64,000 nucleotides of DNA from contig NZ_CP109427.1 in assembly GCF_036250695.1 (NCBI RefSeq), forward strand, positions 682,001 to 746,000, written 5' to 3'. Positions 2,534 to 62,195 of the stretch are shown here, in pieces. The notes below the pieces were generated by a model. The model was not told the origin of the DNA. It saw nothing but the letters and a program-made list of their open reading frames with translations, and did not search any database. The DNA comes from Streptomyces sp. NBC_01497 (GTDB lineage: Bacteria; Actinomycetota; Actinomycetes; Streptomycetales; Streptomycetaceae). The position numbers and the translations under genes were made by a program. Numbering within the stretch: the stretch's first letter is position 1; every line of letters begins with the position of its first letter.

Positions 2534-3709
2534 TCAGTCGCTGTCGGCCGTGACGAGATCCGCGGACCACTTCTCCTCGATCCGCCCGTAGCGCCACACG
2601 AGCAGAGCGACCAGCCAGGAGACGAAGAAGAGGCCGACGATGCCGTAGCCCGCGTAGTCGAGGTTGATCCCCGCGATGGCCGCGAGCGGGCCCGAGGTGA
2701 TGTTCGCCTGGTCCGCGAGGACACCGACGAGTTCGATCGTGCCGATGATGAGCGCGACGGCCACGGAGATGGACGTGATGGTGATGTTGTAGAACACCTT
2801 GCGCACCGGCTTGGCGAACGCCCAGCCGTAGGCGGCGTTCATGAAGACCCCGTCGACGGTGTCCATCAGGCACATGCCGGCCGCGAACAGGACCGGCAGC
2901 ACGAGGATGGAGTAGAAGGGGAGGCTGAAGGCGGCGGCGCCGCCCGCGAGCACGAGCAGGCCGACCTCGGTGGCCGTGTCGAACCCCAGCCCGAACAGCA
3001 CTCCGACCGGGTAGATGTGCCAGGCCTTGCGCACGGACTTGGTCAGCCCGTTCAGGAATCGGTTCATCAGGCCGCGCTTGTTGAGCTGCTCCTCCAGTTC
3101 CTGCTCGTCGAAGTGGCCGTCGCGCATCCTGCGGAAGATCTTGACGATGCCGACCAGCACGGCGAGGTTGAGGATGCCGAGGACCCACAGGAAGACACCC
3201 GACACCGAGGCCCCGATGACCCCGGTGGCCGAGTGCAGCCCCGAGTTGTCGTCCTCCACCTGCCCGACCAGCGCCTTCACGCCCACGGAGAGGAGGAAGG
3301 AGAGGGCGAAGACGATCGTCGAGTGGCCGAGGGAGAACCAGAACCCGACCGACAAGGGCCTGCGCTCGCGGGCCGCACCGCGCGCCTCGCGCTCGACGTT
3401 GTCGGCGAGGAGTTTGCGGGTCGTGTTGTCCACCGCGGCGATGTGGTCGGCGTCGAACGCGTGCCGCAGCCCGAAGGTGTACGCGAGCACCCCGACCCCG
3501 ATGTTGAAGACCGGGTGGTCACCCCCCAGGTGGTAGTGCTTGGGCGCCACGAGGCCGAACAGCACCCCGAATCCCGCCAGGTGCAGCAGCACGATGAAGC
3601 CCAGCATGCCGCCCAGCGCCCGTCGGTCACCGCGCGTCAGCGACTGACGGAACTGTCCGAGTCGCTCTCCCAGCGTCGGTTCGACACGTATGTCGCTGCT
3701 CAATGCCAT
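2534..3709 (-). CDS. NiCoT-family nickel/cobalt permease (HoxN/NixA type)
   Basis: This 391-residue protein has about eight membrane segments. The family signature in helix II, HAFDADHIAAVDN, holds the His/Asp residues that bind Ni2+ or Co2+; the second signature GLGFDTATE and a late FAAGMCLMDT motif are also present. A charged cytoplasmic loop (FRRMRDGHFDEQELEEQL) separates the halves. It takes up nickel or cobalt across the cytoplasmic membrane, probably for Ni-superoxide dismutase, urease or hydrogenase. The upstream promoter overlaps a Nur-like box, which points to nickel-dependent repression. A GGGAG lies directly against the ATG; a TTG two codons later (3703) would be better spaced and may be the true start. 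Confidence 0.92.
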   Translation of the reverse strand: MALSSDIRVEPTLGERLGQFRQSLTRGDRRALGGMLGFIVLLHLAGFGVLFGLVAPKHYHLGGDHPVFNIGVGVLAYTFGLRHAFDADHIAAVDNTTRKLLADNVEREARGAARERRPLSVGFWFSLGHSTIVFALSFLLSVGVKALVGQVEDDNSGLHSATGVIGASVSGVFLWVLGILNLAVLVGIVKIFRRMRDGHFDEQELEEQLNKRGLMNRFLNGLTKSVRKAWHIYPVGVLFGLGFDTATEVGLLVLAGGAAAFSLPFYSILVLPVLFAAGMCLMDTVDGVFMNAAYGWAFAKPVRKVFYNITITSISVAVALIIGTIELVGVLADQANITSGPLAAIAGINLDYAGYGIVGLFFVSWLVALLVWRYGRIEEKWSADLVTADSD

Positions 3710-3974: not shown

Positions 3975-4376
3975 ATGTCCGCTTCGTCCCCCACCGCACG
4001 CTCCGTCGGCCTGATCCTCGGGTCCGTCGTCGCCGTCGCCGCCATCCTCTTCGCCGCCTTCACGGCCCTCACCGGCTCCGCCGGCACCACCGACGCGAAG
4101 CCGCCCCGCCCCCACACCGCGCCGAGCGCGTCGGAGGCCGCCCCCGGTCCGCCGGCGCCCGACGCCTCGCCCGTCGCGTCCTCCGCTCCGTCCTCCAACG
4201 GGCCGGCCTGCAAACTCTTCGACACCGAGTGCCAGGAGCAGAACCCCTCGGGCACCGTCTCGCAGGAGGAGGACGCCACCTCCGGGTCCCGGGCCGGCGC
4301 CACTCCCCGCCTCCCCGACCCACCGCAGGGCACGGCCGCCACCGGGGGCGGTGGCGTGCTCGGCGGAACCGAGTGA
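3975..4376 (+). CDS. Small membrane-anchored, Pro/Ser-rich secreted protein of unknown function
   Basis: The predicted 133-residue product has a short N-terminus, one hydrophobic helix (~10-33, SVGLILGSVVAVAAILFAAFTAL) and then a long low-complexity Pro/Ala/Ser tail. The tail has one cysteine pair (CKLFDTEC, ~75-82) that could form a disulphide outside the cell. The ATG is chosen because a GAGAGGA lies upstream and the hydrophobic segment starts soon after it. It is divergent from the nickel permease and followed by a hairpin at 4483. No family is recognised; a cell-envelope protein is the safest description. Confidence 0.6.
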   Translation: MSASSPTARSVGLILGSVVAVAAILFAAFTALTGSAGTTDAKPPRPHTAPSASEAAPGPPAPDASPVASSAPSSNGPACKLFDTECQEQNPSGTVSQEEDATSGSRAGATPRLPDPPQGTAATGGGGVLGGTE

Positions 4377-4916
4377 ACCCCGCCCCACGCCCGGGGGCGC
4401 GGAGCACGAACCCGCGCACCGCGCCCCTGCCCCGCACCCCCGGCCCGTAGGACCGGCAGACAATGCACCGCGACGCGCCCGTCGCGCCCCGCATCTCGGG
4501 GCGCGGCGGGCGCCGCGTCGCGGGCGGCGGAGCCGGCCGGCTCCGCACGGGACGCACCGTTCGCGCGGCGCGGCACCAGACCCTCTCAGCACTCGGGCTC
4601 ATGATCTCCCAGTCGACGCAGTCCCAATTTTTGGTAAACCGCGCCGGAAGTGCGCCGGACGGGACGGGGGCCGTCGCGTCGCCCGCGCATCGCGCCGAAT
4701 TCCAGTGACGCCAACGCCCCTGCCTACGAGCGTCGTTACTGAACCCGGGCGCACTGCCCACGTCAACACACTCCAAACCTGCCCGAGTTGTACACCGAGC
4801 GCCCCAGGCGCCTCTTGACAGCCATACCGCCCGGGTCCTTGACTTCTGCCGCGGCAGGCGGACGCCTCGACCGTCCGACGGCCGGCACATCAACCGTTCC
4901 GATCTGGGAGGTCCTC
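4377..4916. other. Intergenic region upstream of the RiPP precursor gene
   Basis: About 540 bases without a convincing gene. It holds the hairpin at 4483-4505, an A/T-richer patch near 4600-4640, and a perfect TTGACA at 4815-4820. The best -10 for the latter (TTGACT at 4839) is weak, so the promoter of the precursor gene is only tentatively placed about 75 bases before its start. Confidence 0.45.
4483..4505 (+). terminator. Hairpin terminator after the small membrane protein gene
   Basis: Perfect 9-bp stem CGCGCCCCG / CGGGGCGCG with a 5-base loop, about 105 bases downstream of the stop at 4376. It would insulate the precursor gene from upstream transcription. Confidence 0.55.
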
Positions 4917-4994
4917 ATGAAGTTCGTTCGCCTCGTGAAGAAGATGCGGTCCGAGAAGAGCCTCAAGGCCTACGCGTGGTACGGCTGGATCTGA
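4917..4994 (+). CDS. Atropopeptide-type RiPP precursor peptide, core AWYGWI
   Basis: A 25-codon gene encodes a basic leader (MKFVRLVKKMRSEKSLK) followed by AYAWYGWI at the extreme C-terminus. An ATG with a GGGAGG Shine-Dalgarno 7 bases upstream, and an equally good ribosome site for the P450 83 bases downstream, support real translation. The C-terminal aromatic hexapeptide A-W-Y-x-W-x is the pattern of tryptorubin A (AWYIWY as I recall it), made from a tiny precursor by a single P450. The predicted core is residues 20-25 with cleavage after Tyr19. Gly replaces Ile at core position 4 and Ile replaces the terminal Tyr, so the product should differ from the known ones. No protease or exporter is adjacent, as in the minimal clusters described for this class. 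It is far below the length cut-off of standard gene callers. Confidence 0.85.
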   Translation: MKFVRLVKKMRSEKSLKAYAWYGWI

Positions 4995-5003
4995 TCGGTC
5001 GTC

Positions 5004-5050
5004 CACCCGGTACACCGGGTGACGGGTCGTCAAGGGCGTCCCGTCACCCG
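5004..5050 (+). promoter_or_regulatory. Two overlapping hairpins between precursor and P450
   Basis: CACCCGG (5004-5010) pairs with CCGGGTG (5015-5021). CGGGTGACGGG (5016-5026) pairs with CCCGTCACCCG (5040-5050) in an 11-bp stem with a 13-base loop. The two share bases 5016-5021 and cannot form together. Their position in the 83-base gap suggests a partial terminator, an RNA-stability element or an attenuator that keeps precursor transcript in excess over P450 transcript. The pairing is seen directly; the role is inferred. Confidence 0.55.
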
Positions 5051-5077
5051 TCCGCCGTCCCGTTCACGGAGGTGCTC

Positions 5078-6154
5078 ATGCCCGAGCGATCGCATGGTGC
5101 GCCGCACGGCGGCCGGACCGTACGCTTCGCCCCCAGGATCGACGCGCTGCTCGCCCAGCACACCGGATCGGACCTGTTCCGGCTGGAACCGGACACGATC
5201 GGGGTCGCAGGCCCCGACCTGATGGACGCGCTGCTGCACAGCCGGCCCGCCAACGCCGAGGAACGCCCGACCTTCAAACCCGTACGGGCCAGGCGGGTCA
5301 GCAGGACCGACGCCTCCACGTTCATGCAGGCCGTCTCGACGGATGTGCGCGCGGCGCTGAAGCGCCCCCTGGAGCCCACCGTCGATCTCACCGGCTCGTG
5401 GCCGCAGGTCCCGCACGCCTACCTGCGCGATCTCGTCTTCGGCCGCGAGCGCTTCCGCTTCCGGGTGCTGGTGGACCGGCGCCTCGAACTCACACCGAAA
5501 CTGACCTGGTCCGCCGTCACGTCTGGGGCCGCCCTGCTCGGCCGGCCCGGGTCCCAGGTCCCGCTGTCGAAGCTCGCCTCCCTCGTCCTCGACTCGACGA
5601 CGTACGAGGACCGCAGGTACGCGATGTACCTCTACCGCCGTGTGGCGGCGCCGGTGTGCTTCACCGTGGCCGCGCTCGTCACCAACGCGGTGTGGCTCGG
5701 GGCCCCGTTCGACGAGGACACACCGAACCGCCACATCATCCACGAGGCGCTGCGGCTGCTGCCCGTGTCCTGGAACATCCTGCGGGTGGCGTCCCCGGAG
5801 TTCACCGCGGTGGACGGGCGCATCGGCGAGCACGACGACGTGCTGGTCCTCCCCCTGCTCAGCCATCGTGACCCGAAGCTCTGGGACGACCCCGACGCGT
5901 TCCTGCCCGAGCGCTGGAACGACCTGGACCCGGAGAGCCAGCCCGGATACCTGCCCTTCGGTCACGCCGACGAGCGGTGCTGGGGACGGCACATGGTCCT
6001 CCCGCTCGCCGAGCGGCTCCTCGACCTCGTGCGCAGGGACGGCCTGACGGTGGACCCCGGCCGGCGGGCGGGCGCGGTCGAACTCGACGGGCTGATGGAG
6101 GTGTCCGACGTCCGTGTGACACACGCGCGGGCCGGGGCCGCGCTCGCCGGGTGA
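5078..6154 (+). CDS. Cytochrome P450, predicted aromatic cross-linking enzyme of the RiPP locus
   Basis: The 358-residue protein has the P450 hallmarks: ExxR (Glu223-Ala-Leu-Arg226), the PERW region, and the haem loop FGHADERCWG with the ligand Cys301. It is shorter than the ~400 residues usual for soluble bacterial P450s. The usual I-helix (A/G)Gx(D/E)T oxygen-activation motif is not evident in the matching hydrophobic helix (~193-206, VCFTVAALVTNAVW). ATG at 5078 follows GGAGGT by 4 bases and removes an unrelated N-terminal extension. Its position directly after the 25-residue aromatic precursor makes it the likely catalyst of C-C and/or C-N bonds between Trp and Tyr side chains, as for the tryptorubin P450. 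Electron donors must come from elsewhere; no ferredoxin is adjacent. Confidence 0.9.
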   Translation: MPERSHGAPHGGRTVRFAPRIDALLAQHTGSDLFRLEPDTIGVAGPDLMDALLHSRPANAEERPTFKPVRARRVSRTDASTFMQAVSTDVRAALKRPLEPTVDLTGSWPQVPHAYLRDLVFGRERFRFRVLVDRRLELTPKLTWSAVTSGAALLGRPGSQVPLSKLASLVLDSTTYEDRRYAMYLYRRVAAPVCFTVAALVTNAVWLGAPFDEDTPNRHIIHEALRLLPVSWNILRVASPEFTAVDGRIGEHDDVLVLPLLSHRDPKLWDDPDAFLPERWNDLDPESQPGYLPFGHADERCWGRHMVLPLAERLLDLVRRDGLTVDPGRRAGAVELDGLMEVSDVRVTHARAGAALAG

Positions 6155-6212
6155 TCCCACGGACCGGTCCCCACCAGGAGGGACCGCGTCCTCGCAGCTC
6201 CCTGGTGTCAGG

Positions 6213-6227
6213 CGTCACGGTGTGACG
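6213..6227. terminator. Small hairpin between P450 and GNAT genes
   Basis: CGTCAC / GTGACG with a 3-base loop sits in the 178-base gap between two convergent genes. A near copy of its second half (TCACCGTGTGACG) follows about 12 bases later. It is a weak terminator candidate, judged mainly on position. Confidence 0.3.
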
Positions 6228-6332
6228 TCGTGGCTCCTCACCGTGTGACGCTCCCGGTGTGCGGGGACGCCGCGGCTCGCCCCTGGCGGCCGCGAGGACC
6301 GTGGTCACACCGGCGCCCGGCAGCGGCCCCGC

Positions 6333-6884
6333 TCAGCGGCCCGCGGGCATCCGTCCCTCGGCCGCGGGGGCCGCGGTCCCGGGCGAGGACTCCGCCGGCC
6401 GCAGCGGCTTCGCGTAGCAGCGGCTCAGTTCCTCGAAGCGGTAGTGCCCGAACTTGTCACAGGGCTCGTAGCCGCTGGAGACGTAGAGGGAGATCGCCTC
6501 GGGCTGCTTGGTGCCGGTCTCCAGGACCATCCGGAGGCGGCCGGCGGCCCGCGCGTCGTCCTCCAGGGCGGCCAGCACGCGGCGCGACAGTCCCTGGCCG
6601 CGCGCCTCGGGAACGACGTACATGCGCTTGATCTCCGCGTCCCCGTCCGTGTAGCCGAGGCCGTTCGCGTCCTGGATCCGCCAGCCGCCGGTGGCCACGG
6701 GTACGCCGAGGGCGTCGCGGGCGATCAGGTACAGGCCCCGCGGCGGCTCGAACATGTCCGGGTCGAGAGGGGTGATGTCACCGTCGTCGCCGTATCGCTC
6801 GGCGTACTCACGCTGCACGCGATCGTTGAGCCGGACGGCGTCGGGGTGGCCGAAGGAGACAGGGCGGATCATCACGCATTTCAT
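6333..6884 (-). CDS. GNAT-family N-acetyltransferase
   Basis: A 183-residue single-domain GNAT protein. The acetyl-CoA-binding motif A is clear: IKRMYVVPEARGQGLSRRVL (R/Q-x-x-G-x-G/A type), preceded by the GGWRIQD strand and followed by MVLETGTKQPEAISLYVSSGYEP, which is motif B. The tail (PAESSPGTAAPAAEG) is disordered. The start chosen (ATG 6884) is followed by a second possible ATG at 6872. The gene faces the P450 gene tail to tail and has its own promoter side, so I do not count it as part of the RiPP locus, although acetylation of a free amine cannot be excluded. The substrate is unknown. Confidence 0.85.
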   Translation of the reverse strand: MKCVMIRPVSFGHPDAVRLNDRVQREYAERYGDDGDITPLDPDMFEPPRGLYLIARDALGVPVATGGWRIQDANGLGYTDGDAEIKRMYVVPEARGQGLSRRVLAALEDDARAAGRLRMVLETGTKQPEAISLYVSSGYEPCDKFGHYRFEELSRCYAKPLRPAESSPGTAAPAAEGRMPAGR

Positions 6885-7025: not shown

Positions 7026-8156
7026 ATGCGGGAGCCGGTGGACCGGAGACGTCAGCGCATCCTGGCCGTCGTGCGGGCGCGGGGCGCGGCGCGCGTCACG
7101 GACCTGGCGGCCGAGCTGCGGGTCTCCGTGGTGACCGTACGGCGGGACGTCGAGGAACTGGCGCGCGGGGGCAAGCTGGTGCGCGGGCACGGCGTCGCGC
7201 GCTCCGTCGTGCCCGTGCAGCGGGCCGCAGTCCCGGCGCACCGGACGCTCGACGGCCACACGGTCGGTCTCGTGGTACCCGAGCGCCATTCGTACCTGTC
7301 GGAGACCCTGCACGGCTCCAGGACCGTTCTGGAGGCCGCGGGGATGCGGATGTCGCTGCACATCGCCCCGCAGGCGGCGGGCGCCGAGCGGCCCATGGTG
7401 GAGGACGCGCTGGCCGCCGGGGCTTCCGGTGTGCTGATCGCGCCGCGCTGGCGCAGTGCCGCCTCGGAGGAGGCCGACTACGGCTGGCTCGCCGAACTCG
7501 GTGTGCCGACCGTGCTGATGGAACGCAGGCCCCGTCCGGGCAGCCTGCTGCATCCACTGGACTCGGTGTGCTCCGACCACTGGTACGGCGTGCACCTCGC
7601 CCTGGACCACCTCGTCTCCTTCGGCCACCGTCGCATCGTGCTCGCCGCCCGCAACGACAGCCCCACGGCGCGCGCGGTACGGGCCGCCTTCGCCGAGATC
7701 GCCTCCGGGCACCCCGCGATCGAGGACTGGTCGGTCGCACTGAGCTCTCCCGACGCCGCGGCCGACCTGTCCCTGAGCCCTCAGGCCCCGCTCGATCTCG
7801 CGGCGCTGCTGCGCGAACGCCGGGCGTCCGCAGTCCTGTTGCACGGCGACGTCGACGCGCTCATCCATGTGCAGCGTCTCGTGGGGGCCGGTGTGCGCGT
7901 GCCCGAGGACTGCTCGGTGGTGGCGTACGACGATGTCGTGGCCGCGCTGGGCAGCATCCCGCTGACGGCCGTCGCGCCGCCGAAGACGAGGGTCGGGGCG
8001 GTGGCCGCCGAACTGCTGCTCCAGCGCCTCGGAGCGGCCTCCGGCGGCCCGGACGCGGGCTCGCCCGAGGGCCCGGCAGCCGAGCCCGTACGGCGTGTCG
8101 AGTTGCTGCCCTCCCTGATGGTGCGCGGTTCGGCCGGCCCTGTGCCGGCGGCCTGA
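7026..8156 (+). CDS. Sugar-responsive regulator: DeoR-type HTH fused to LacI-type sensor
   Basis: The 376-residue protein combines a DeoR-like winged HTH (residues ~5-60, with VTDLAAELRVSVVTVRRDVEELARGGKLVRGHG) and a LacI/periplasmic-binding-protein sensor (from ~75: HTVGLVVPE… DHLVSFGHRRIVL… SVVAYDDVVAALGSIPLTAVAPP). This chimera is common in Streptomyces beside carbohydrate ABC operons. ATG 7026 places the HTH at the N-terminus with GGAGCG upstream. It precedes, in the same direction, the binding-protein/permease genes from 8509 and probably represses them until the sugar binds. Likely targets are the direct repeats near 8412 and its own promoter. Confidence 0.9.
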   Translation: MREPVDRRRQRILAVVRARGAARVTDLAAELRVSVVTVRRDVEELARGGKLVRGHGVARSVVPVQRAAVPAHRTLDGHTVGLVVPERHSYLSETLHGSRTVLEAAGMRMSLHIAPQAAGAERPMVEDALAAGASGVLIAPRWRSAASEEADYGWLAELGVPTVLMERRPRPGSLLHPLDSVCSDHWYGVHLALDHLVSFGHRRIVLAARNDSPTARAVRAAFAEIASGHPAIEDWSVALSSPDAAADLSLSPQAPLDLAALLRERRASAVLLHGDVDALIHVQRLVGAGVRVPEDCSVVAYDDVVAALGSIPLTAVAPPKTRVGAVAAELLLQRLGAASGGPDAGSPEGPAAEPVRRVELLPSLMVRGSAGPVPAA

Positions 8157-8452: not shown

Positions 8453-8508
8453 CCGGGCGGGTCGCTCAGGATTCCGGTGACCCCCACAGGAGCCGCAGGG
8501 AGGCGCCC

Positions 8509-9843
8509 ATGCCTGGTCGGCACAGCCGTCGCACCGTGCTCGCCGCGCTCACCGCCCTACCCGCAGCAGGCGCGCTCGGCGCCTGCTCGGGTCCGTCGGC
8601 GGCGAGTGCGCACAGCCCCGGCAGGGGCAGGACCACGATCACCTTCTGGTCGGCCCTCAGGGGCAGCCAGCAGGTGGTGGACGAGTACAACAAGACCCAC
8701 GACCGCATCCATGTGGTCTACGAGCAGGTTCCGTCGGGCGCCCAGGGCGGCGACGCGAAGCTCAACAACGCGGCGCGGGCCGGGAACGCCCCCGACATCG
8801 CCACCACCGACTACTCCACGCTGCCGAGCTTCGCCATCGACGGTGTGACCCGGGACGTCACGTCCCTGATGAGCGAAGGGTTCCGCCGCAGGCTGCTGCC
8901 CCAGGCGCTCGCACTGACCACCTTCGCGGACCGCAGCTTCGGTGTCCCCGTCGACATCGAACCGATGGTCCTGCACTACCGCAAGGACCTCTTCGACCAC
9001 TACGGCATCCACGTGCCGAGCACCTGGGACGAGTACGAGGACACGGCGAGTGCCGTGCGCCGCGCCGCTCCCGACCGCCGGCTGGGTCCCTTCTGGAGCG
9101 ACGGGTGGGCCCAGTTCATCGCGTGCGCCTGGCAGGCGGGCGCCCGGTGGTACGGGATCCACGGCGACACCTGGAACATCTCCATGGCGGACGGGCCGAC
9201 CCGGAAGGTCGCCGCGTACTGGCAGCGGCTCATCGACACCGGCCTGGTGTTCATGAACCCGGGCTCGGGACGGCAGAGCGACGCCCAGATAGCGGAGGGC
9301 CTCGTACTGACCCGGCTCAACGGGGCCTGGGACGCGGGTGCGCAGATGACCGCGCACCCCTCCCAGAAGGGCCAGTGGCGCATCGCGGCCCTGCCCCAGT
9401 GGGATCTCACCCACCCGTACACCGGGACCCAGGGCGGTTCCACGTACATGATCACCAAGGACAGCCGGAACCCGGAAGCCGCCATGGAGTTCGTCGAGTG
9501 GCTGGTCGGCAGCCCCGCCGCCCTGCGGGCCCGGCTCGCGAGCGGCGCCAGCAGCCAGTATCCCGCCGTGCCCGACCTGATGCCGGTGGCGCGAAGCGGC
9601 TTCGACCGGTCGTACTACGGGGGGCAGGACATCTACCGGCTGTTCGATGCCGAGGCGCAGAAAATCAGACAGGGCTGGATCTGGGGTCCCCGCATGTCAC
9701 CGACCACCTCGGTCCTCACCGACGGCTTCGCCCGCGTCAGCGCGGGCCGCGGCACCCTCATCGACGCGGTGCGCGCGGCCCAGAGCGGCACCATGCCCGA
9801 CCTCAGGGCGATCGGCCTGTCCACGACCCAGCACAGCGGCTGA
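8509..9843 (+). CDS. Extracellular sugar-binding lipoprotein of an ABC importer
   Basis: A 444-residue family-1 solute-binding protein. The N-terminus has twin arginines (RHSRRTVLAALTALPAAG), suggesting Tat export, and a lipobox LGAC, so the mature protein is probably lipid-anchored at Cys. Typical features are the ITFWSALRGSQQVVDEYN start of lobe I, the hinge segment GVPVDIEPMVLHYRKDLFDHYG and the EAAMEFVEWL helix. ATG 8509 follows GGGAGG. It is the first gene of a run with two permeases, a dehydrogenase and a DUF2264 protein. The ATPase is absent; Streptomyces importers of this class commonly share MsiK from another locus. The ligand is unknown, but the downstream genes suggest an acidic or unsaturated saccharide. 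Confidence 0.92.
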   Translation: MPGRHSRRTVLAALTALPAAGALGACSGPSAASAHSPGRGRTTITFWSALRGSQQVVDEYNKTHDRIHVVYEQVPSGAQGGDAKLNNAARAGNAPDIATTDYSTLPSFAIDGVTRDVTSLMSEGFRRRLLPQALALTTFADRSFGVPVDIEPMVLHYRKDLFDHYGIHVPSTWDEYEDTASAVRRAAPDRRLGPFWSDGWAQFIACAWQAGARWYGIHGDTWNISMADGPTRKVAAYWQRLIDTGLVFMNPGSGRQSDAQIAEGLVLTRLNGAWDAGAQMTAHPSQKGQWRIAALPQWDLTHPYTGTQGGSTYMITKDSRNPEAAMEFVEWLVGSPAALRARLASGASSQYPAVPDLMPVARSGFDRSYYGGQDIYRLFDAEAQKIRQGWIWGPRMSPTTSVLTDGFARVSAGRGTLIDAVRAAQSGTMPDLRAIGLSTTQHSG

Positions 9844-9888: not shown

Positions 9889-10872
9889 ATGACCCACACC
9901 GTCACAACACCGGCCGCGCCCCCGGGCCCGGGCCGTCCGCGTACGCCGGATCCGCGCCGGCGCCCCCGTGCCACCGCGCGGCGCCGCGAACTGGGCGCCG
10001 CCGGTGCCCTGATGACGCCCTTCTTCGCACTGCTCGTCGCCGTCTTCCTGATCCCCGTCGGCGCGGCGGTCTGGCTGAGCTTCTTCGGCGCGAACGAACC
10101 GGGCCTCGGCTTCGGCCCCGAACACACCGTCTTCGTGGGGCTGCGCGACTACGCGGCCGTCCTCACCGACCCCACGTTCCTCGGTGGGCTCGGCGTCGTC
10201 GCCCTGTACGCCGTCATCTACATCCCGGTGATCGTCGTCGCGTCGCTGGCGCTCGCGCTGCTGCTCGACTCCGGGGCGGCGAAGCTGCGTTCATGGGCGC
10301 AGCTCGGCCTGTTCCTGCCGCACGCGGTGCCCGGCATCATCGCGGCCGTCATCTGGCTCTACCTCTACACGCCCGGCATCAGCCCGGTCGTCGCGCTCTT
10401 CGCCCAGGGCGGCATCAGCGTCGACTTCCTGGGCGTCCACACGGTGGTGCCCTCGATCGTCAACATCGCGGTGTGGAGCAACCTCGGTTACAACATGGTG
10501 GTCTTCTACGCGGCGCTCCAGGCGGTGCCGAGGGAGGTCGTCGAGGCGTCCGTGATGGACGGGGCGGGCTCCGTGCGCACGGCCGTACGTATCAAGACCC
10601 CGCTGATCAGGCCGTCCATCGTGCTCGTCGCGATGTTCACCCTGATCGGCACCCTGCAGTTGTTCACCGAGCCGATGCTGATCGGCCAGAGCACACCGAC
10701 CATCAGCCACCGGTTCTCCCCCAGCATGTACATCTATGACGCGGCGTTCTCCCGCGACAACTACGGGCTGGCCGCGGCAGCCTCGGTGGTCCTGCTCGCC
10801 GTCACCATCGCGCTCTCCTACGGCGTCACCCGGTGGACCAACCGGGCCGCGGCGAGCGGGGACGCCGCATGA
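9889..10872 (+). CDS. Sugar ABC transporter permease, MalF type
   Basis: A 327-residue inner-membrane protein with a long basic N-terminus and six helices. The cytoplasmic EAA loop that contacts the ATPase reads EVVEASVMDGAGSVRTAVRIKTPLIRP (about 220-245), with the conserved glycine. It starts 46 bases after the binding-protein gene and its stop overlaps the next ATG by four bases (ATGA), so the two permeases are translationally coupled. Together they form the heterodimeric channel for the sugar delivered by the preceding lipoprotein. Confidence 0.92.
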   Translation: MTHTVTTPAAPPGPGRPRTPDPRRRPRATARRRELGAAGALMTPFFALLVAVFLIPVGAAVWLSFFGANEPGLGFGPEHTVFVGLRDYAAVLTDPTFLGGLGVVALYAVIYIPVIVVASLALALLLDSGAAKLRSWAQLGLFLPHAVPGIIAAVIWLYLYTPGISPVVALFAQGGISVDFLGVHTVVPSIVNIAVWSNLGYNMVVFYAALQAVPREVVEASVMDGAGSVRTAVRIKTPLIRPSIVLVAMFTLIGTLQLFTEPMLIGQSTPTISHRFSPSMYIYDAAFSRDNYGLAAAASVVLLAVTIALSYGVTRWTNRAAASGDAA

Positions 10873-60908: not shown

Positions 60909-62195
60909 TCAGCCGGCGGCCCCCGGCGCCGCCGCGTCCGTGACCGTCCCGGCGGCCACCGCGGGGTCGGCGAGGGCGGACAGGACCGCCGCGGCGAGCG
61001 CCGTGCGCTCTGTCATGCCGTCGAGGCTGATGTACTCGTCCCGGGCGTGGGCGCCCGCGCCGACCGCACCGAAACCGTCGAGCACGGGCACGCCGAGCGC
61101 CGCGACGAAGTTGCCGTCACTGGCACCGCCGACGGCGCACTCGCGCAGGGTGAGACCCAGCGCTGCGGCGTGGTCGCGGGCGAGCGAGAACAGCCGGGCG
61201 TTGCCGGGCGTGCGGGACATGACGGGCCTGTTCCATCCGCCGCTCGTCTCCAGCCGGGCCCGGGCGTCGTGCGGACGCAGCGCGGCGAGCGCCCGGTCGA
61301 TCCGGTCGGCCTCCGCGTCGTCCGACACGCGTACGTCGAGGTGGGCGACGGCCTGGCCCGCCGACACGTTGGCCCGGGTACCGCCCGTGACGATGCCCAC
61401 GTTGACGGTGGTCCCGGCGTCGGCATCGCTCAGCGCGTGCAGGGACAGCACCGCTCGGGCGATCTCATCGACGGCGCTGACGCCCTTGGCGGGGTCGAGC
61501 CCGGCGTGTGCCTCCACGCCGGTCGCCGTGACCTGGAAGAGGCCGACGCCCTTGCGCGCGGTCTTGATGGCGCCGTCCGCCGACGCCTCGAAGACGAGGG
61601 CGGCCGGCACGCCCGCGGCGGCCGCCTCGATCACGGGGCGGGAGCCGGGGCTGCCGAGTTCCTCGTCCCCGTTGAGCACGAGCCGCAGGGGCGGACGCGG
61701 CAGGCCGAACGCGTCGAGTGCCCGCACCGCCCACAGGACCTGTACGAGGCCCGCCTTCATGTCGAAGACGCCGGGGCCCGTGGCCCGGTCACCGTCGACG
61801 GCGAACGGGCGCTCCGCGACGGTACCGCGGCTCCACACCGTGTCGTAGTGGCACAGCAGGAGGATCGGCGCGGCATCCTCGCCCGAGGGCGCGCCCTCGC
61901 CGGTCCTGGCGCCGGGCCAGTCCAGGACGAGGGTGTCGCCGTACGCGCCGCCGTCGGCGCGGTGCCGGGCGCTCGGAGTGCCGAGCACCTGCTCCAGCCA
62001 CTGTTCGAGACCCGGCAGGGCCGCGTCCAGGCAGGCCTTGTCGTCGCTCGGGGTCTCGGTGTCGACGTAACGGGACAGTTCACCGAGCATGTCGGCGCGG
62101 TGCCCGGCGACCCAGGCGGTGATCTCCTCGGGCGCGACGGGCCGGGCGGGGGCCGTGGTGGGGGTGGGGGCCGTGGGGCGGGGTGTGGTGTTCAA
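60909..62195 (-). CDS. M20-family metallopeptidase (glutamate carboxypeptidase-like)
   Basis: The 428-residue protein has the M20 active-site motifs: LLCHYDTVWSRGTV (His/Asp), GPGVFDMKAG (bridging Asp) and LVLNGDEELGSPGSRP (Glu pair), and a dimerisation domain with EAHAGLDP. It resembles carboxypeptidase G2-like or ArgE/DapE-type hydrolases of N-acyl amino acids. The start appears to be TTG at 62195, overlapping the PanE-like stop by four bases (TTGA), with GGAAG upstream. It is the third gene of an SDR–PanE–M20 operon. No signal peptide. Confidence 0.9.
   Translation of the reverse strand: MNTTPRPTAPTPTTAPARPVAPEEITAWVAGHRADMLGELSRYVDTETPSDDKACLDAALPGLEQWLEQVLGTPSARHRADGGAYGDTLVLDWPGARTGEGAPSGEDAAPILLLCHYDTVWSRGTVAERPFAVDGDRATGPGVFDMKAGLVQVLWAVRALDAFGLPRPPLRLVLNGDEELGSPGSRPVIEAAAAGVPAALVFEASADGAIKTARKGVGLFQVTATGVEAHAGLDPAKGVSAVDEIARAVLSLHALSDADAGTTVNVGIVTGGTRANVSAGQAVAHLDVRVSDDAEADRIDRALAALRPHDARARLETSGGWNRPVMSRTPGNARLFSLARDHAAALGLTLRECAVGGASDGNFVAALGVPVLDGFGAVGAGAHARDEYISLDGMTERTALAAAVLSALADPAVAAGTVTDAAAPGAAG

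Follow-up and report, generated by a model that had tools for sequence, protein, structure and literature searches.

We analyzed a 64,000-nucleotide stretch of the genome of Streptomyces sp. NBC_01497 (hereafter the window), which carries on its forward strand a small gene encoding a ribosomally synthesized and post-translationally modified peptide (RiPP) precursor, followed by a gene for a single cytochrome P450. The features of this locus and its surroundings are summarized in Table 1. An earlier note on this DNA had described a 25-codon gene ending in AYAWYGWI with a P450 gene 83 bases later, each gene having a strong ribosome site; both frames and both sites are present as described, with 83 bases lying between the stop codon of the precursor and the ATG of the P450. 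All 13 of the upstream regions that were aligned likewise contain GGAGG.

Table 1. Features of the candidate atropopeptide locus and neighbouring genes (window coordinates).
Feature	Position	Strand	Remarks
Precursor peptide gene	4917..4994	+	25 aa, translated as MKFVRLVKKMRSEKSLKAYAWYGWI and then a stop codon; KSLK at 14-17; presumed core AWYGWI at 20-25
Cytochrome P450, atropopeptide class	5078..6154	+	358 aa; ATG at 5078; ExxR 223-226; presumed heme-ligand Cys301 in FGHADERCWG
Ribosome site of precursor gene	4906..4911	+	GGGAGG, read in sequence; 5 bases before ATG
Ribosome site of P450 gene	5068..5072	+	GGAGG, read in sequence; 5 bases before ATG
Probable promoter	4815..4844	+	TTGACA (-35), TTGACT (-10 position); pattern TTGAC-N18/19-TT[CGT]ACT, common to part of family
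NicO-type nickel permease	2537-3709	-	neighbour
GNAT acetyltransferase	6336-6872	-	downstream neighbour
DeoR-type regulator with sugar-binding domain	7026-8153	+	neighbour
ABC transporter solute-binding protein and permease	8503-9840 and 9889-10869	+	neighbours

All 25 residues of the precursor are matched by the NCBIfam model NF038372.1 (“tryptorubin family RiPP precursor”), with a score of 53.1 bits against a curated cut-off of 33. Searched across the whole 9.08-Mb genome, the model matches at a single place, which is this gene, and it matches in none of 14 control genomes; Pfam gave no match to the precursor at E-values up to 1. The earlier note had expected automatic annotation to miss so short a gene, an expectation overtaken by the NCBIfam model and by the atropopeptide rule of antiSMASH 8. 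With 134 open reading frames (ORFs) of at least 20 residues overlapping the first 14 kb of the window, a small ORF could in principle lie by chance beside an unrelated P450. This explanation has a negligible probability and is refuted by the genome-wide model search, by shuffled sequence, and by comparative data. ORFs with a KSLK-like motif ([KREP][SP][LR]K) followed by W..[WY] close to the stop codon occur once in the window and not at all in 100 dinucleotide shuffles, and the leader motif and core recur next to a P450 gene in 82 of 82 related loci.

These relatives comprise the best 80 of 125 obtained by a profile scan of genome contigs, together with two plasmid loci. A precursor gene adjoins the P450 gene in every one of the 82, of which 81 were recognized by the filter and the last (L033) has KNLK. 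In a P450 tree of 83 rows, formed by the window and its relatives, the window enzyme pairs with that of Streptomyces sp. 8L (L004; support 99/93) within a clade of 21 rows (support 100/99) that includes the varsorubin enzyme. The comparison with atropopeptide families proposed in the earlier note thus places the P450 with a characterized member and with precursor partners throughout, rather than in an unrelated clade. Within the clade, 20 of the 21 precursors end in AWYGW[I/V/L], the cores being AWYGWI (18), AWYGWV (1), AWYGWL (1) and SWYQWL (1). The last belongs to locus L018, which lies on the contig of the published varsorubin cluster (NZ_JOBF01000044.1). Neither glycine at core position 4 nor an aliphatic last residue occurs in the other 62 rows of the tree.

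In the clade precursors, Ser15, Leu16, Lys17, Tyr19, Trp21, Tyr22, and Trp24 are invariant in all 21, and their Ala, Gly, Val, Leu, and Tyr codons differ silently, a pattern that points to purifying selection on the peptide. The AWYGW[I/V/L] branch is conserved across the Streptomycetaceae, Pseudonocardiaceae, and Nocardiaceae, and this conservation over three bacterial families hints at a real biological role.

The 2024 definition of atropopeptides (PMC11450843) asks for a class-defining P450, a leader that carries KSLK, and Trp as the second core residue. The window P450 falls within the 100/99 clade of the varsorubin enzyme, KSLK stands at residues 14–17, and Trp occupies core position 2 if the core is taken as the last six residues, this Trp21 being found in 21 of 21 clade rows. 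On the basis of this definition, the locus is classified as an atropopeptide cluster. The analysis directly shows both genes, the adjoining precursor and P450 genes of related loci, the P450 clade, and a conserved core, and together with the match to NF038372.1 these bear out the atropopeptide reading offered by the earlier note. We therefore hold with high confidence that the two genes represent a minimal atropopeptide cluster, in which the P450 would cross-link the aromatic side chains of AWYGWI and the leader would be trimmed afterwards. With Trp at positions 2 and 5 of the core and KSLK in the leader, the precursor also has the xWxxWx form of the bitryptides. Judged by its sequence, the locus is a further member of the atropopeptide family with a bitryptide pattern and not a new kind of system. 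Membership of the biarylitides was considered and rejected, as the precursor has 25 residues against the five-residue precursor described for that group (PMC13417212).

Several observations weigh against this classification. KSLK stands at residues 14–17 here as against 17–20 in the description of the family (PMC11450843), and the Pfam P450 model covers only residues 220–306 of the 358-residue protein. Foldseek similarity to solved P450 structures is moderate, with template modelling (TM) scores of 0.46–0.59 by query length among the 50 matches listed. The core differs from the solved cores consulted in having Gly at position 4 and ending in Ile, so the pattern of cross-links could differ too. 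None of the 50 matches listed by each of Foldseek and VIA-align is named as a RiPP cross-linking P450, which is no evidence against such a role.

A further feature of the enzyme is Val201, which appears to replace the usual acid of the P450 acid–alcohol pair in 80 of 83 rows (residues 192–207 in the window and its 82 relatives). This replacement is possibly a mark of these cross-linking P450s; the placement of the pair is our own.

Tryptorubins A and B (core AWYIWY), as well as amyxirubin and clavorubin, share the precursor architecture and P450 family of the window locus. The P450 of Amycolatopsis xylanica (L065), the locus of which we take to be that of amyxirubin, is 60% identical to the window enzyme. 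The AWYIWW core of this locus and of S. clavuligerus (L002) has an aromatic end, unlike that of the window, and the P450 rows with AWYIWY or AWYIWW cores lie outside the window's clade. The varsorubin P450 is 68% identical and falls within that clade. Its cluster (sva, Streptomyces varsoviensis) also consists of two genes, with a 25-residue KSLK precursor and an aliphatic C-terminal residue (PMC11450843), although its core is SWYQWL as opposed to AWYGWI. Scabrirubin (sca, Embleya scabrispora) resembles the window system in its KSLK leader, Trp-x-x-Trp core, and single P450 (PMC11450843, PMC12352619), but its core is TWFIWYS with one C–N bond (PMC11450843), and the Embleya relative (L003) does not join the window's clade and has a long branch.

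In the published model, the leader recruits the P450 and KSLK threads the peptide; bond formation falls to the P450, and trimming to a ubiquitous protease (PMC11450843). For the window locus, we infer the cross-links, trimming, and product. The ribosome would make the 25-residue precursor, which, following the tryptorubin model, the basic leader and KSLK would dock on the P450. The enzyme would then oxidatively link the core aromatics. A Trp2–Trp5 bond is the most likely, and a Trp2–Tyr3 bond is possible together with one to a backbone nitrogen, the arrangement of varsorubin B1, whose cluster is the only solved one known to us in the clade. An unspecific protease would remove the leader and probably Ala1. 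It seems very probable that, through stapling by the P450, the aromatic end of the peptide becomes a rigid ring or cage of small size. A Trp–Trp bridge is expected because the solved cluster of the same clade makes varsorubin B1, with a Trp–Trp C–C bond, two C–N bonds, and the loss of four hydrogens, and varsorubin B2a, with one C–C bond (PMC11450843). Our best guess for the product is a Trp–Trp cross-linked penta- or hexapeptide of the varsorubin type.

A rival reading within the same family concerns how many bonds the P450 forms. A single Trp–Trp bond, in the style of scabrirubin or varsorubin B2a, would yield a monocyclic WYGW-type peptide with no cage. We give this outcome appreciable weight, though less than an even chance: both named products have a single bond (PMC11450843), the scabrirubin enzyme ScaB forms one C–N bond in WxxW cores (PMC12352619), and AWYGWI matches the bitryptide pattern xWxxWx. 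However, the window P450 belongs to the clade of the varsorubin enzyme, which makes B1 with three new bonds, most characterized atropopeptides have a complex shape (PMC11450843), and Tyr at core position 3 is conserved in 21 of 21 clade rows. Bonds beyond the Trp–Trp bridge are likely in the cross-linked product.

The predicted masses call for some care. The earlier note had proposed a loss of 2.016 Da per cross-link, a rule that is not general, as varsorubin B1 has three new bonds and loses four hydrogens. The linear peptides AWYGWI and WYQWL share one calculated mass ([M+H]+ 795.3824), so products of the window locus could be isobaric with varsorubins. In dereplication, AWYGWI minus four hydrogens would coincide with varsorubin B1 at a calculated m/z of 791.3511. 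Further calculated [M+H]+ values are 793.3668 for AWYGWI minus two hydrogens, 724.3453 for linear WYGWI, 722.3297 and 720.3140 for WYGWI minus two and four hydrogens, and 609.2456 for WYGW minus two hydrogens. Kitasatides 1019 and 1017 (kst), described in the literature as P450-made atropopeptides, were considered as products of AWYGWI and rejected. The numbers in their names match none of the forms calculated for this peptide, and kitasatide therefore probably has another core; as a guess, they fit SAWYFWY minus two and four hydrogens.

The probable promoter of the precursor gene became visible only by comparison: scans of 4400–6350 for sigma-70 consensus sequences and terminators found none, and an Rfam scan of 4300–6400 gave no match. 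Alignment of 13 clade upstream regions revealed TTGAC and TTCACT-like boxes. A pattern defined after seeing part of the same data (TTGAC-N17..20-TT[CGT]ACT, within 300 bases upstream) was found in 31 of 83 upstream stretches, with spacers of 18 or 19, and was absent from 52; none of 4100 control windows taken elsewhere in these loci contains it. A second sample provided 29 upstream regions, consisting of the window, 13 repeats of earlier loci, and 15 others. The pattern is present in 12 of the 29 (spacer 18–19) and in 6 of the 15 non-repeats.

Some relatives have a palindrome, GTGA-N6-YCAC, next to this promoter. Alone, it occurs in 17 of 82 upstream stretches and 17 of 4050 control windows. 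It stands 0–2 bases before the -35 TTGAC in 16 of 82 loci (L003, L005–L014, L018, L023, L024, L026, L065), a combination not encountered elsewhere in 550,068 bases of the loci on both strands. Locus L012 of this set is from Streptomyces noursei. In the second sample, the combination recurs in 7 of 29 regions, including 5 of the 15 new ones. By our own reading, 13 of the 16 sites conform to the Streptomyces Crp motif GTG(N)6GNCAC (Gao 2012, as quoted in PMC10033298); taken by itself, this looser motif is found in 15 of 83 upstream stretches and 157 of 4100 controls. These data suggest a putative Crp-like site, through which a global regulator would control such clusters in some relatives. A Crp-type regulon in the window's own genome was considered and rejected. 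The combined pattern matched once (window position 61387, in a peptidase-like frame), and we take this match as chance because the reversed control also gave one. The words promoter and Crp are absent from the main text of PMC11450843 and PMC12352619. The promoter pattern and Crp-like site would offer a starting point for studying the timing of expression in such clusters.

The palindrome is found neither at 4617–4916 of the window nor upstream in L004, the only two exceptions among the 13 Streptomycetaceae rows of the clade; it is also found in none of the 8 other rows. The absence of this site beside the -35 box in the window and L004, when the other 11 keep it, could point to a silent or decaying locus in the window strain, with genes retained yet unexpressed. 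We consider this unlikely, given that both frames are intact, the ribosome sites and promoter core are retained, Cys301 and ExxR are present, and the palindrome is also missing in 66 of 82 family loci. More speculatively, AWYGW[I/V/L] precursors may constitute a distinct subgroup, marked by 25 residues, Gly4, an aliphatic end, and a range of three families, with an unreported cross-linked product and an ancestral Crp-type control lost in the window lineage; we hold this combined proposal to be somewhat doubtful.

The suggestion in the earlier note that the locus might be undescribed has to be set against AtropoFinder, which in 2024 reported 683 putative atropopeptide biosynthetic gene clusters (PMC11450843); published clusters of this kind thus number above 650. 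AWYGWI, WYGWI, and YAWYGW were not found in literature text, a search that lay outside figures, supplements, and most subscription papers; the string AWYGW appeared in one paper, on fly peptides. A product of the AWYGWI sub-branch was not found reported and may be known elsewhere. The locus contributes a clean, two-gene system for making what is probably a rigid, cross-linked peptide, the core of which was not found characterized.

The surrounding genes appear to be ordinary neighbours. The GNAT acetyltransferase was considered as a tailoring gene and rejected: a homologue (E-value 1e-8) is found only in the sister locus L004, with about 3 kb of flank on either side compared in most of the 82 loci, and we treat the gene as a neighbour because of this restriction. 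Within the stretches compared, homologues of the NicO permease also lie beside the locus only in L004. The permease gene and those for the DeoR-type regulator and the sugar transporter were likewise rejected as parts of the cluster.

The precursor family is patchily distributed and present in roughly one in ten of the genomes sampled from the genus. Among 295 genomes of the window's genus, its own included, 30 have a match (29 above the cut-off), and a P450 adjoins the precursor in all 30 (L105 among them). Their cores are AWYLWY (9), AWYIWY (8), AWYGWI (5, own genome included), AWYHWY (5), AWYFWY (2), and AWYIWF (1). A separate search of relatives found the family in 8 of 41 genomes. Two of these (L091 and L092), from another family of the order, have KSMK precursors and also a P450. 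In Xanthomonas cucurbitae (L081), the frame of the atropopeptide P450 ends after 105 residues beside an apparently intact precursor gene, and from its sequence we read it as a broken or mis-sequenced copy.
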